From assembly GCA_029976065.1 (NCBI GenBank), contig JARKNV010000031.1:1-64000 (forward strand): a stretch of DNA of 64,000 nt. The letters run 5' to 3'. Within the stretch, counting starts at the first letter, position 1. Each line of letters starts with the position of its first letter. The DNA comes from Selenomonadales bacterium (lineage in GTDB: Bacteria; Bacillota; Negativicutes; Sporomusales; UBA7701). Both the position numbers and the translations under genes were made by a program. Of the stretch, positions 8,569-62,725 are shown piece by piece. The notes under the pieces are model-generated. The model was given only the letters and a program-made list of their open reading frames with translations. It did not search any database and was not told where the DNA came from.

Positions 8569-8689
8569 GGCCGTTGATAAGGCCCCATCTGCGGCGTTGC
8601 TCCTCAGAGCGCTTGCTTGCGTACGCTCAAAGTACGCGGCGCGGCGCGTTCTTCCGGTGCGCCTTGCATCTGGGACCTTCTGAACGGCC
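8569..8689. repeat. Palindromic dispersed repeat R1
   Basis: The shortest copy of a six-member family. Outer arms GGCCGTT (8569-8575) and AACGGCC (8683-8689) are perfectly complementary. Inside are the left box CATCTGCGGCGTTGCTCCTC, an apical GCGTAC-loop-GTACGC hairpin, and the right box CGGTGCGCCTTGCATCTGG. It begins right after the aminotransferase stop codon. Confidence 0.85.
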
Positions 8690-16991: not shown

Positions 16992-17165
16992 GGTCGCGTA
17001 AAAAGTCCATCTGCGGCGTTGCTCCTCGGCTGCCATCCTGTGCGCAGTTCTTAGCGCTTTAGTGGTTAGAACTGCGGCCTACCCTTTACGGGTGCAGCGT
17101 ACGTTCGTGTACGCTTCCGGTGTCAGCCTCCGGTGCGCCTTGCATCTGGAGCTTTTTACGCAACC
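16992..17165. repeat. Palindromic dispersed repeat R2
   Basis: Same internal boxes as R1, but the outer arms are different and still complementary: GCGTAAAAAG on the left and CTTTTTACGC on the right. The middle carries a module with the GCAGTTCT/AGAACTGC stem and ACCCTTTACGGGT, then the GCGTAC-GTTCGT-GTACGC hairpin. Directly follows the EF-G-like stop. Confidence 0.85.
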
Positions 17166-18408: not shown

Positions 18409-18628
18409 GCGACCGTTGATAAGCGCCCATCTGCGGCGTACCCGCAAGGGGCAGGCCGCCGTTCTAAGGTGCTAAAGCACCAAGAACGGCGCACTTGCTC
18501 CTCGGATGGCCCACTCGACGTACGCAACCAAGTACGCCGTCGCGGGCCTAAGCGATCACATCAACACTAAAGCGTTGTGTGCCTGCTTATCCGGTGCGCC
18601 TTGCATCTGGGCACTTCTGAACGGCCGC
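18409..18628. repeat. Palindromic dispersed repeat R3 (with inverted internal module)
   Basis: Outer arms GCGaCCGTT and AACGGCCGC pair with one mismatch. Its left box is split: CATCTGCGGCG is separated from TTGCTCCTCGG by about 57 bp. That insert resembles the reverse complement of the central module of R2 and R5 (CCCGcAAGGG, AGGCCGC, GTTCTAA, CTAAAGC, AAGAAC, GCGCAC in the same order). Lies between convergent genes. Confidence 0.8.
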
Positions 18629-41655: not shown

Positions 41656-42576
41656 ATGGGCTTCCTCGACCGCCTCAAAGAAGGCCTCACCAAAACCCGC
41701 AAAGGCTTCACCGAAAAAATCGAGCAGCTCGTCACCGGCTACGCCGCCATTGACGACGACCTCCTCGACGACCTCGAAGCCCTCCTCATAGCCGCCGACG
41801 TCGGCGTCAAAACCGCCTCCGGCCTCCTCGCCGACATCAGGGCCGCCGTCAAAGCCAAACAGATAAACGGCCCCGACGACCTCATTCCCTTCCTCAAAAC
41901 CCGCATCGCCGCAATACTGGCGGCGGGGGAGGGGGCACCCCGCGAAGCCGAAGCCGGCCCCACCGTCATCATGGTCGTCGGCGTCAACGGCGTCGGCAAA
42001 ACCACCACCATCGCCAAACTCGGCCACTACTACCGCGACCAGGGCCGCCGCGTCCTCCTCGCCGCAGGCGACACCTTCCGCGCCGCCGCCAGCGAACAAC
42101 TCGAAATCTGGGGCGGTCGCATCGGCGCCGAAGTCATCCGCCACAAGGAAGGCTCCGACCCCGCCGCCGTCGCCTTCGACGCCGTCCAGGCCGCCAAAGC
42201 CAGGAACGCCGACCTCCTCATCGTCGACACCGCCGGCCGCCTCCACACCAAATCCAACCTCATGGAAGAACTCAAAAAAGTCCACCGCGTCATCGCCCGC
42301 GAACTCCCCGGCGCCCCCCACGAAGTCCTCCTCGTCCTCGACGCCACCACCGGCCAGAACGCCCTCAGCCAGGCCCGCCTCTTCAAAGAAGCCGTCGAAA
42401 TCAGCGGCCTCGTCCTCACCAAACTCGACGGCACCGCCAAAGGCGGCGTAGTCGTCGCCGTCAAAAACGACCTCGGCGTCCCTGTCAAATGGATCGGGGT
42501 GGGGGAGAAGATGGAAGACCTGCGCCCCTTCATCGCCTCCGATTTTTCTGCCGCTTTATTTGGGGACCGCCCATAA
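41656..42576 (+). CDS. ftsY: Signal recognition particle receptor FtsY
   Basis: 306 residues, without a long acidic A domain. N domain (MGFLDRLKEGLTKTRKGF), then the G domain: GVNGVGKTTTIAKL, DTFRAAASEQL, DTAGRLHTKSNLMEEL, TKLDGTAKGG and the closing GVGEKMEDLRPF. Binds Ffh-SRP at the membrane for co-translational targeting. The last residues GDRP and the stop are read from the left arm of repeat R4. Starts 7 bases after smc. Confidence 0.96.
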   Translation: MGFLDRLKEGLTKTRKGFTEKIEQLVTGYAAIDDDLLDDLEALLIAADVGVKTASGLLADIRAAVKAKQINGPDDLIPFLKTRIAAILAAGEGAPREAEAGPTVIMVVGVNGVGKTTTIAKLGHYYRDQGRRVLLAAGDTFRAAASEQLEIWGGRIGAEVIRHKEGSDPAAVAFDAVQAAKARNADLLIVDTAGRLHTKSNLMEELKKVHRVIARELPGAPHEVLLVLDATTGQNALSQARLFKEAVEISGLVLTKLDGTAKGGVVVAVKNDLGVPVKWIGVGEKMEDLRPFIASDFSAALFGDRP

Positions 42577-42741
42577 GACCCCATCTGCGTTGTTGGTCCT
42601 GCGCGTGCTTGCTAGCGTACATCCGAGTACGCGGCCGGACGCTTGCGCCATCCATGGCGCGTCCGGCACTAGGCCCATCCGGGGCCGTCGTCGCTGCGCA
42701 TGCTCGGTCCGCCTAGCATCTGGGGCCTTCTGAACGGTCCC
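42563..42741. repeat. Palindromic dispersed repeat R4 (variant boxes)
   Basis: Outer arms GGGACCG (42563-42569) and CGGTCCC (42735-42741). It carries the variant boxes CATCTGCGTTGTTGGTCCT and GGTCCGCCTAGCATCTGG shared with R6, and the GCGTAC-loop-GTACGC hairpin. It overlaps the last 14 bases of ftsY. Confidence 0.85.
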
Positions 42742-42750
42742 GGCAATCCC

Positions 42751-42783
42751 AAAAAACGAAGCACCGGTTATCCGGTGCTTTTT
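42751..42783. terminator. Bidirectional terminator (ftsY / FliB-like gene)
   Basis: AAGCACCGG, loop TTAT, CCGGTGCTT, flanked by AAAAAA and TTTT, between convergent genes. Confidence 0.85.
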
Positions 42784-45224: not shown

Positions 45225-45472
45225 GGAGCCGCCCATAAGCGCCCATCTGCGGCGTTGCTCCTCGGTTGCCATCCTGTGCGCAAGTTCTTGGCGCTTTTGC
45301 GCTTAGAACTGCGGCCTACCCTTTACGGGTGCAGCGTACGTTCGTGTACGCTTCCGGTGTCACCCTCCGGTGCGCCTTGCATCTGAGCACTTCCCCACGC
45401 CTGCGGCGCGGATAGCTCAACTAAGGCTCGGGCGAAAACGCCCAAGCCTTAGTTGAGCTTATGAACGGCTCC
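45225..45472. repeat. Palindromic dispersed repeat R5 (with nested palindrome)
   Basis: Outer arms GGAGCCG (45225-45231) and CGGCTCC (45466-45472). Centre very close to R2. About 70 bp lie between the CTTC and TGAACGG of its right arm, and they include a 21-bp near-perfect palindrome (45414-45434 with 45439-45459, loop AAAA). After the element comes CGTGGGGGAGAGGGGAGA at 45489-45506, also found after R6. Confidence 0.85.
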
Positions 45473-47984: not shown

Positions 47985-48012
47985 TATCCTTTTATTTTCT
48001 GCCATTTTCATG

Positions 48013-48139
48013 GGAGCCGTTGATAAGCGCCCATCTGCGTTGTTGGTCCTCCGGGCGCTCGCTCGCCGTACGTCACGCAGTACTGTCTTCGCGAGCGTCC
48101 TCGGAGCCGCCTAGCATTTGGGCGCTTCTGAACGGCTCC
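48013..48139. repeat. Palindromic dispersed repeat R6 (variant boxes)
   Basis: The cleanest copy: GGAGCCGTT (48013-48021) and AACGGCTCC (48131-48139), then GCGCCCA and TGGGCGC, all complementary. Variant boxes as in R4; reduced central GTAC hairpin. Followed by CGTGGGGGAGAGGGGAGA at 48160-48177. Confidence 0.87.
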
Positions 48140-48314
48140 GGCATTTCCAGGTTTCAGGTCGTGGGGGAGAGGGGAGACATAATTGCAGCGGCAAAATTAA
48201 CTTCCCAGAATATCATCTATATTTTTTCAAATGACCAAATGGTTGCAGGAGTTTTTTACTATTGTAGGAACTATTTTACAATATAGACTCTGGTTGTGTA
48301 ATGGAGGGGGTCCT

Positions 48315-60617: not shown

Positions 60618-60974
60618 ATGGAGCATATCCGCACCGGCGACGCCGGGGAGAGGGCGGCGGCCGAGCACCTGAGGAAGGCGGGCTACGCCATTCTGGCGCT
60701 GAAGTACCGGGCCAGGCCGGGCGAGGTCGATATCGTGGCCGACCACGGCGGGACGCTGGTGTTCGCGGAGGTGAAGACGCGGCGCGGCGCGCTCTACGGC
60801 ACGCCGGCGGAGGCGGTGACGGCCCGCAAGCAGGGCAAGATCATGGCGACGGCGCTGTGTTATATGAAGCAGCACGGGCTGTACGACCGGCCGATGCGGT
60901 TTGATGTGATCGAGGTAATGATGACCGGCAATGTGGCGAAACTGAACCATATAGTAAATGCATTCGGCCGTTGA
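60618..60974 (+). CDS. YraN-family (UPF0102) endonuclease-like protein
   Basis: 118 residues. GDAGERAAAEHLRKAGYAIL, RARPGEVDIVADHGGTLVFAEVKTRR (PD-(D/E)XK nuclease-like core), AVTARKQGKIMATALCYM. No activity is firmly established. Usually beside rnhB in Firmicutes. Confidence 0.92.
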   Translation: MEHIRTGDAGERAAAEHLRKAGYAILALKYRARPGEVDIVADHGGTLVFAEVKTRRGALYGTPAEAVTARKQGKIMATALCYMKQHGLYDRPMRFDVIEVMMTGNVAKLNHIVNAFGR

Positions 60975-60999
60975 CTACGGTTGTTGCGTGTTTCCCCGG

Positions 61000-61207
61000 G
61001 CGAAAGTTGGCAGCGCCCCGCTTGCTGTCTACGGCCGAACGCGCCGTAGACTTGCGCCGACTCCACCGTACCGTCGCCAACTGTCATCCGTGACAGGTGG
61101 CTCCTCGCCCGGCCGTCCATGGCCGGGCGTACGGTTCGTAAACGGCTTGCTTCGTCAACGGCGCGTAACGGCCTGCGCCAATGCGCGCTTGCGATGCCAA
61201 CTTTCGC
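61000..61207. repeat. Multi-hairpin palindromic element S1 upstream of ubiX
   Basis: Bounded by 13-bp perfect inverted repeats, GCGAAAGTTGGCA (61000-61012) and TGCCAACTTTCGC (61195-61207). Inside are three more perfect hairpins: 61027-61035/61043-61051 (9 bp), 61081-61086/61091-61096 (6 bp) and 61107-61114/61121-61128 (8 bp). Unrelated to R1-R6. It fills most of the 273-base yraN-ubiX gap. Confidence 0.8.
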
Positions 61208-61247
61208 TTGCTGGAAAATGAAATGTGACCAGAATGAGGGGAGAGCA

Positions 61248-61805
61248 TTGCGGGTTATTGTAGGCGTTACTGGCGCAAGTGGCGCAATCTACGGTTTCCG
61301 TTTGCTTGAGGTGCTGAAGCAGACGGGATGCGAGGTGCACGCGGTCGTGACGGCGAACGGCTGGACGGTGCTGGCGCACGAGTGCGGCGTGGATCGCGCG
61401 GCCGTGGCGGCGCTGGCCGATCGCCTGTACGCCGTCGACGATTACGGCGCGGCGCCGGCGAGCGGGTCGTTCCGGGCGGACGCGATGGCGGTCGCGCCCT
61501 GTTCGATGCGGACGCTGGCGGCGATTGCCGGCGGCCTGGCCGACAACTTGCTGGCGCGGGCGGCGGACGTGGCGCTGAAGGAGGGCCGCAGGCTTGTCCT
61601 TGTGCCCCGCGAGACACCGCTGAGCGCCGTGCATTTGGAGAATATGCTGAAGCTGGCCCGCCTGGGGGTGCGGCTCGTGCCGGCCTGCCCGGGCTTTTAC
61701 CACAAGCCGCGGGACGTGGCGGCGCTGGTGGATATGCTGGTCGGCAAGGTGTGCGACGCGCTGGGCGTGGAGCACGATTTGTTCCGGCGGTGGGAGGGGC
61801 TGTGA
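61248..61805 (+). CDS. ubiX: UbiX/Pad1-family flavin prenyltransferase
   Basis: 185 residues from TTG 61248 behind GAGGGGAGAG. MRVIVGVTGASGAIYGFRLLEVL, VAPCSMRTLAAIAGGLADNLLARAADVALKEGR, VLVPRETPLSAVHLENMLKL, and ACPGFYHKP. Makes prenylated FMN for UbiD-type decarboxylases. No ubiD is adjacent. Confidence 0.93.
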   Translation: MRVIVGVTGASGAIYGFRLLEVLKQTGCEVHAVVTANGWTVLAHECGVDRAAVAALADRLYAVDDYGAAPASGSFRADAMAVAPCSMRTLAAIAGGLADNLLARAADVALKEGRRLVLVPRETPLSAVHLENMLKLARLGVRLVPACPGFYHKPRDVAALVDMLVGKVCDALGVEHDLFRRWEGL

Positions 61806-61810
61806 GAAGC

Positions 61811-61821
61811 GGGGGGGGGGG
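61811..61821 (+). other. Poly-G tract (11 Gs)
   Basis: An uninterrupted run of eleven Gs between ubiX and an AT-rich gene, the longest homopolymer I noticed in the window. Such tracts slip during replication and could vary promoter or leader spacing. Confidence 0.5.
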
Positions 61822-61861
61822 AGGAAGGACAGCTAATTCTATTCCCCCTGGAGGGTTAAAT

Positions 61862-62725
61862 ATGTTTGATGATTTGGCAGCTTACTTTTATGAAAATGTT
61901 CTTTCGGCCTATAAGGAGTATATTGACTGTAAGGGATCAGGAACTTCTGGAAAAAGCCGCGATATCCGTTCTGCAATTACTGCGGCGACTGCTCTTTATC
62001 ACTTTCGTGAACATTTGCCGCAAACTAAACAACTTTCATGGAAGCAAGTAGTTTCTCAGTGTCCTGATTACAAATTGCTAGGTGATGTGGTAAATGCGGC
62101 AAAACATTGTTCCGTAACAAAATACAAGCCTCAAATCAGAGACGCAAAACAAATTGAAGAAGTAATAGTTATCACGGAATATCGAGATGAGCAGGGGTTT
62201 TACCGTTCGATTGAAAAGATGGTTCAACTTACCCTGCTTGATGGTTCTGTGAAAGATATGTATGATGTGCTGACTAATGTGATGAACTTCTGGCAAAAGT
62301 ATCTTCAAATGAAAGGTATAATTGTTTCTCTACAGTATTACGACCTAATCACAGAATATCAACACAAATCACGCGAAGAATGTGGCTATTCAACTCATAA
62401 TTTTGAGATGGTAAAGGGTCTTCGCTTTAAACAAAACTTGAAATTACAAAAATATAATTACGAAAAACAGCGGGTAGAACCGATAGATTTGACTGGCTGT
62501 GAAGCTAAATTTCAAATTTATGAACCTACATATGAACTTAATGTTACACTTATAAACAAAATTACAGGGAAAAGTATAACTCGTTCAGTTTTTCTTACTA
62601 AAGAAGAAAATGATCAATTAAACATATTAGAGACAGAAGCAGAGAAACGTGATTATGTCAGTAAACTGCCTTCATTTCAAGTAGCTATTCAGGAGCTAGC
62701 CACAGGAGAATATGAAAAGTGCTAA
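61862..62725 (+). CDS. AT-rich orphan gene, unknown function
   Basis: 287 residues from ATG behind GGAGGGTTAA. I recognise no family. The N-terminal 100 residues are helical and contain SWKQVVSQCPDYKLLGDVVNAAKHCS, a D-x-x-N-A-x-KH pattern seen in HEPN-like and other uncharacterised bacterial proteins. The C-terminal half is beta-rich (EAKFQIYEPTYELNVTLINKITGKSITRSVF). Base composition is far from the neighbours: bases 62401-62460 contain only 15 G/C. Probably acquired horizontally; a defence or stress role is possible but unproven. Confidence 0.55.
   Translation: MFDDLAAYFYENVLSAYKEYIDCKGSGTSGKSRDIRSAITAATALYHFREHLPQTKQLSWKQVVSQCPDYKLLGDVVNAAKHCSVTKYKPQIRDAKQIEEVIVITEYRDEQGFYRSIEKMVQLTLLDGSVKDMYDVLTNVMNFWQKYLQMKGIIVSLQYYDLITEYQHKSREECGYSTHNFEMVKGLRFKQNLKLQKYNYEKQRVEPIDLTGCEAKFQIYEPTYELNVTLINKITGKSITRSVFLTKEENDQLNILETEAEKRDYVSKLPSFQVAIQELATGEYEKC

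Follow-up and report, generated by a model that had tools for sequence, protein, structure and literature searches.

Between the yraN-like and ubiX-like genes of a Selenomonadales bacterium (Negativicutes, Sporomusales, UBA7701), a block bounded by inverted repeats is a copy of TwoAYGGAY (RF01731), a known but uncharacterized RNA family that is dispersed in this genus. The block lies near the right end of the window, that is, of the whole stretch of 64,000 nucleotides analyzed here (contig JARKNV010000031.1 of assembly GCA_029976065.1, positions 1 to 64,000). On balance, we think it probable that this block belongs to an old mobile element, non-autonomous and quiet today, with an RNA that binds proteins of the CsrA type.

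Identity and dispersal of the element

The block is bounded by perfect 13-bp arms, GCGAAAGTTGGCA at 61000 to 61012 and TGCCAACTTTCGC at 61195 to 61207, with 182 bp between them, just as the initial annotation had described, and the extended terminal repeat measures 17 nucleotides (nt) at 94% identity. It occupies most of a 273-bp spacer between the yraN-like gene, which ends at 60974, and the ubiX-like gene, whose TTG start at 61248 was picked by eye. Over positions 60995 to 61212, the minus strand folds with -122.4 kcal/mol (z = -6.8) and the plus strand with -118.1 kcal/mol (z = -6.5), values that none of 200 dinucleotide shuffles equaled for either strand, which bears out the earlier description of a highly structured block.

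The minus strand gives a full-length match to RF01731 over the cut-off (Table 1) and carries, within one long stem, the two hairpins with AYGGAY loops of this family, here AUGGAC and ACGGAU. TwoAYGGAY was entered in 2010, with no function assigned, by Weinberg et al., who considered it a probable RNA that is probably not a cis-regulator (PMC2864571), and it was still termed a family of unknown function in 2014 (PMC4333381). A description of the family as a repeat or mobile element was not found in the literature searched, as far as its text was accessible.

The block had been taken for a single-copy element. In its own genome, a DNA search recovers 27 matches, the block included, and the RF01731 model recovers 28 at E <= 1, of which 24 have E <= 1e-3 and 19 are over the cut-off. 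At E <= 1e-3, the four congeners (G001 to G004) carry 15, 28, 17, and 33 matches, and one genome from another genus of the family carries none. Matches at this threshold were found in 13 of 380 genomes class-wide, and matches over the cut-off were found in 6; this search scored at most seven candidates per genome and therefore undercounts copies. The 13 genomes comprise the five of the genus, one of the same order, in which three of four matches exceed the cut-off, and seven that fall in two other families, with one to three matches each, all under the cut-off. Across the five genomes of the genus, 117 matches with E <= 1e-3 and 4 weaker ones from the window organism add up to 121; of these, 92 were analyzed, and the other 29 are all from G001 to G004.

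Conservation of the fold

Sixty of the 92 copies, all of them full-length matches of 152 to 160 nt, could be aligned over their whole length (alignment A1), and these 60 sequences also supplied the consensus fold, which was computed with RNAalifold. In this fold, 89.4% of 4,127 pair cells are paired, a value that drops to 33.5 to 38.1% when the partners are slid, and 37 of the 70 pairs are changed on both sides (415 both-side-changed cells versus 131.5 +- 11.1 in shuffles). One branched fold is thus maintained by compensatory change. Unconserved pairs and a lack of further copies had been named in the initial annotation as grounds for giving up its proposals; the reverse was found on both counts. 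The outer stem is the most variable part, with 14 of its 15 pairs changed on both sides and 84% of cells paired, and its arms differ in sequence between copies and between subtypes while mostly remaining complementary. Of the three inner perfect hairpins described earlier, two (61106 to 61129 and 61081 to 61096) are conserved among copies. The third (61028 to 61035 with 61043 to 61050) is perfect in the window copy, but all eight of its pairs are kept in only 1 of the 60 copies, and in 413 of 419 cells its 3' columns pair instead with the opposite side of the long stem.

The pairs that have changed also carry information on the strand. Between well-paired neighbors, G.U outnumbers A.C by 38 to 16, and by 64 to 28 under a looser filter. 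At the site shared by copies L047 and L157, seven of eight changed pairs remain paired, every one of them through G.U. The bias does not differ with the direction of the upstream gene (29:16 versus 24:9; Fisher P value = 0.47), and the strand that matters therefore belongs to the element itself. These ratios modestly support, without proving, that the minus (TwoAYGGAY) strand is the folding strand.

GGA loops and predicted binding of CsrA

Both loops of the window copy fit CANGGANG, with 26 nt between the two GGAs, and thus have the arrangement of CsrA/RsmA-type targets, in which GGA lies in the apical loops of paired hairpins. High affinity for CsrA/RsmE is ascribed to apical CANGGANG hexaloops (PMC4894983). 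Among the 60 aligned copies, loop 1 reads AUGGAC in 49 and contains GGA in all except L022 (59 copies); loop 2 presents GGA in a simple loop in 52, as a hexaloop in 44, a five-base loop in 3, and the tetraloop AGGA in 5 (all from G003). These 60 copies hold on average 1.63 CANGGANG sites, compared with 0.12 in mononucleotide shuffles. Across all 92 copies, two such sites occur in 72, one in 15, and none in 5; on the opposite strand, 21 copies have one and 71 have none.

Gardner and Eldai proposed in 2014, from motif matches, that TwoAYGGAY binds CsrA and described validation as in progress (PMC4333381). Judged from loop sequence and structure, CsrA binding is the best-supported mechanism that we can predict for the element, and it may not be operating in the window organism today. 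Whenever the TwoAYGGAY strand is transcribed, its two GGA loops would bind one CsrA/RsmA-type dimer, and transcripts bearing a copy would serve as decoys or as local targets of CsrA. In the past, copies would have been spread by an enzyme that read the fold of this strand and not any particular terminal sequence.

The csrA gene is present in G001, G003, G004, and G005. Another eight genomes of the class bear RF01731 matches, which in seven stay under the cut-off, and csrA is present in every one, versus 228 of the 380 genomes overall; this co-occurrence is weak because few lineages are involved and one of their genera has csrA almost throughout.

Occupied and empty sites

The many dispersed copies, together with an empty site in a congener, support the part of the initial annotation that read the block as a mobile palindromic element, although its ends lack a conserved sequence. 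The closest ubiX found in the genus is that of G001 (UbiX 83% identical), where the yraN-ubiX spacer measures 31 bp and is without the element. A UbiX scan of named genomes retained 80 loci from other taxa, which did not enter the comparison. Inspection by eye indicated that G002 has half an element 3' of yraN, with an arm resembling that of the window copy and with no ubiX seen there, that in G003 the sequence directly after yraN holds no element and no intact ubiX, and that in G004 yraN is followed by other sequence. Taken together, these sites imply that the insertion predates the split between the window organism and G002 or that sites were hit twice, and loss in G001 is possible too. Two further features were seen around these genes: an apparent remnant of this element, with an internal deletion, 3' of ubiX in G001 (L062, about 2070 to 2142) and an apparent remnant of the start of ubiX directly 3' of yraN in G003 (L154). 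The latter suggests repeated ubiX loss at this site within the genus.

Elsewhere, the site of copy L011 is without an element in G004, and that of L164 is without one in both G004 and the window organism. Other sites are occupied in more than one genome: at the site of L010, L038, and L039, the copies share one orientation and differ in their arms; the L042/L046 and L045/L169 sites are each occupied in opposite orientations; and the L025/L161 site is occupied by different subtypes. No recent movement was seen, since the closest of the best 45 within-genome pairs are only 92.7% identical over 205 nt and 94.7% identical over 170 nt. As regards carriage by phages or plasmids, distant BLASTN searches gave no match in either collection, and a single exact 25-letter pattern gave none in viral contigs.

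According to neighbor genes called with a home-made gene caller, the upstream gene runs in the same direction as the RNA in 39 of the 92 copies and in the opposite direction in 32 (21 unassigned), and the downstream gene runs in the same direction in 35 and in the opposite direction in 52 (5 unassigned); two copies, L047 and L159, lie inside a predicted frame. These counts are in keeping with an element that lies between genes and has no constant target among them.

Searches for possible movers found no Y1 (HUH) transposases in G000 (the window organism; 88% complete) or G003 (96% complete) and nothing beyond fragments in G002 and G004, which makes movement driven by Y1/RAYT proteins unlikely. 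No reverse transcriptase turned up in G000, G001, or G004, and movement through a resident reverse transcriptase is likewise unlikely.

Weighing a proposed mobile CsrA-binding element against other readings

Several observations weigh against a mobile element whose RNA binds CsrA. The csrA gene was not found in the window organism's own assembly (88% complete) or in G002 (listed as 100% complete), both of which are rich in copies, and the loops in these two genomes are not visibly decayed. In 8 of the 60 aligned copies, hairpin 2 is built differently, and GGA lies elsewhere than in a simple loop. A simple consensus scan detected no promoter- or terminator-like site in the window copy, with read-through or other promoters possible. 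The covariation controls flatter the fold because the consensus comes from the same sequences and the copies are related. Counted by distinct positions, the strand bias is reduced to 19 to 10 (P value = 0.14), and the picture at shared sites other than L047/L157 is uneven: L015/L179 shows 15 one-sided breaks and L055/L182 shows 12. There was no clear target duplication at the three sites compared with empty counterparts, whose flanks carry small indels, and no mobilizing enzyme was found in the Y1 and reverse transcriptase searches, which did not extend to DDE transposases.

Intact loops in genomes without a detected csrA speak for recent loss of the gene or for another binder. Since fliW likewise was not found in the window organism or G002, the flagellar stretch as a whole may have been lost or left unassembled in both. 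With no csrA found there, the window copy may be a silent relic in its own genome today.

A different account, which we regard as possible rather than probable, is that of a purely selfish DNA element with no role for CsrA, in which a single strand folds and a mobilizing protein reads its stems and perhaps its GGA loops. Dispersal and empty sites suit it, as do outer arms that vary in sequence with their pairing kept and loops that are intact in genomes where csrA was not found. The strand bias, independent as it is of upstream gene direction, suits it too and cannot separate RNA from single-stranded DNA because G.T is tolerated in DNA hairpins as well. What this account leaves unexplained is the close match of the loops to the CsrA consensus, and the gaps in the record of Y1 transposases and reverse transcriptases given above stand against it.

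Template switching is known to correct imperfect palindromes and so to yield matched changes in inverted repeats, and arm pairing could in this way persist without selection on the fold, the copies being inert repeat DNA. Such correction would account for the both-side changes in the stems, but it predicts no strand bias, contrary to the 38:16 and 64:28 ratios of G.U to A.C, and it does not explain constant loops on changing stems; we consider it unlikely.

An ordinary miniature inverted-repeat transposable element moved by a DDE transposase still to be found would be short, intergenic, and present in many copies with inverted ends and empty sites, as observed here. The end sequences, however, are not common to the subtypes, and the outer stem is unlike such ends because it is the most variable part of the element; together with the lack of a clear target duplication at the three sites compared (in genomes where DDE transposases were not searched for), this makes such an origin very improbable.

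The proposal that the block is a leader RNA or riboregulator controlling ubiX, to which its place directly upstream of the gene and the stability of the plus strand had lent some appeal, was rejected as the least probable reading, since the conserved RNA is antisense to ubiX, copies occur at many sites in all orientations, and no element precedes ubiX in G001. Nothing links the element specifically to ubiX, and it is not a switch of a neighboring gene.

Features and neighborhood of the window copy

The coordinates of the mobile CsrA-binding candidate and of its neighbors are collected in Table 1. Beyond the ubiX-like gene, positions 61811 to 62725 hold a run of at least 10 G followed by an open frame (from about 61863) with visibly lower G+C content, perhaps a foreign gene.

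Table 1. Features of the TwoAYGGAY copy and adjacent genes, in window coordinates
Feature	Position	Strand	Evidence or remark
Whole element: TwoAYGGAY-family structured RNA plus outer stem	61000..61207	-	Arms, model match, folding, alignment, covariation
Full-length RF01731 match, model 1-168 of 168, 62.3 bits (cut-off 43)	61026..61180	-	Covariance model
Outer stem, 5' arm (RNA orientation)	61191..61207	-	Inverted repeat; helix 1, 14/15 pairs changed on both sides among copies
Outer stem, 3' arm (RNA orientation)	61000..61016	-	Inverted repeat; helix 1
Long conserved inner stem, 5' strand	61154..61165	-	Helix 5, 97.9% of cells paired; window position set by eye
Long conserved inner stem, 3' strand	61040..61051	-	Helix 5; window position set by eye
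Hairpin 1 with a 9-bp stem and the loop AUGGAC (61120-61115; C-AUGGAC-G = CANGGANG)	61106..61129	-	
Hairpin 2 with a 5-bp stem and the loop ACGGAU (61091-61086; C-ACGGAU-G = CANGGANG)	61081..61096	-	
yraN-like gene, left neighbor	60618..60974	+	Named by resemblance, not by family-library search
ubiX-like gene, right neighbor; no special tie to the element found	61248..61805	+	Named by resemblance, not by family-library search

Other repeats and inserted modules

A second family of dispersed palindromic repeats, of the CCATCTGCGGCGTTG...CGGTGCGCCTTGCATCTGG type, occurs in the window at 8570 to 8689, 17007 to 17148, 18590 to 18626, 42544 to 42751, 45243 to 45385, and 47995 to 48149, and elsewhere in the genus it flanks many TwoAYGGAY copies. 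Two of its members, 17007 to 17148 and 45243 to 45385, are 95% identical and contain a hairpin module made up of GTGCGCAAGTTCTTAGCGC...AGAACTGCGGCC and a CCCCTTGCGGG-type hairpin after it. This module is also found at one fixed place in TwoAYGGAY copies L020, L023, L026, L028, L187, L188, and L192. The initial annotation had called the element unrelated to repeats R1-R6 of the window; this holds only in part, since an inner hairpin of these two members also lies inside some copies of the element.

An optional hairpin module of the AAGCAGGCACACGCCGCTTTAGCGGCGATGTGATCGCTTATGCCTG type recurs at particular places of the long stem, on the 3' side in L021, L024, L166, L187, L189, L191, L194, and L195 and on the 5' side in L016, L018, and L167. 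In L031, L034, L035, L036, L172, and L173, the two-hairpin GGA-loop core sits within a different outer scaffold (GGCGGCGGCCGCTACTTAGCGAGAGAGCC...), which often lies between CCGGCATTGGGT-type inverted ends and so forms a second, larger element with a common core.

Comparison with known systems and implications

Compared with the accessible descriptions of TwoAYGGAY, the element in this genus is distinctive in being interspersed at 15 to 33 copies per genome and in having an outer stem of varying sequence, optional inserted hairpins, and empty sites. REP and BIME sequences with their RAYT proteins are likewise dispersed palindromes, possibly read as single-strand hairpins, but the element here is several times longer, and two copy-bearing genomes (G000 and G003) yielded no Y1 transposase. 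ERIC, Correia, RUP, and similar repeats (PMC2229807) share its short, non-autonomous, intergenic nature and its potential for RNA structure, whereas here the terminal arms are not a common sequence and two constant loops resemble protein sites.

Among CsrA-related RNAs, CsrB, RsmY, and RsmZ have similar paired GGA hairpin loops, but each is a dedicated RNA with its own promoter, in contrast to two predicted sites per copy spread over many loci in a genome where csrA was not found. The flaA leader of Campylobacter jejuni has a spacing of 21 nt (PMC4894983), versus 26 nt here, and belongs to one gene rather than to a repeat family. As of 2014, known CsrA-antagonist small RNAs were confined to Gammaproteobacteria (PMC4333381).

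That TwoAYGGAY can be dispersed, with sites left empty, an outer stem that covaries, and two CsrA-type loops that hardly vary, offers a new angle on this family. We tentatively raise the possibility that the family is a mobile CsrA decoy, strewing paired CsrA sites across intergenic DNA as a chromosome-wide, dispersed sponge that takes over the role of dedicated CsrB-type RNAs and whose paired-loop core is carried on more than one palindromic scaffold. If CsrA binding and movement are both true, repeats of one family would titrate a global regulator that binds RNA, and this would be so outside Gammaproteobacteria.
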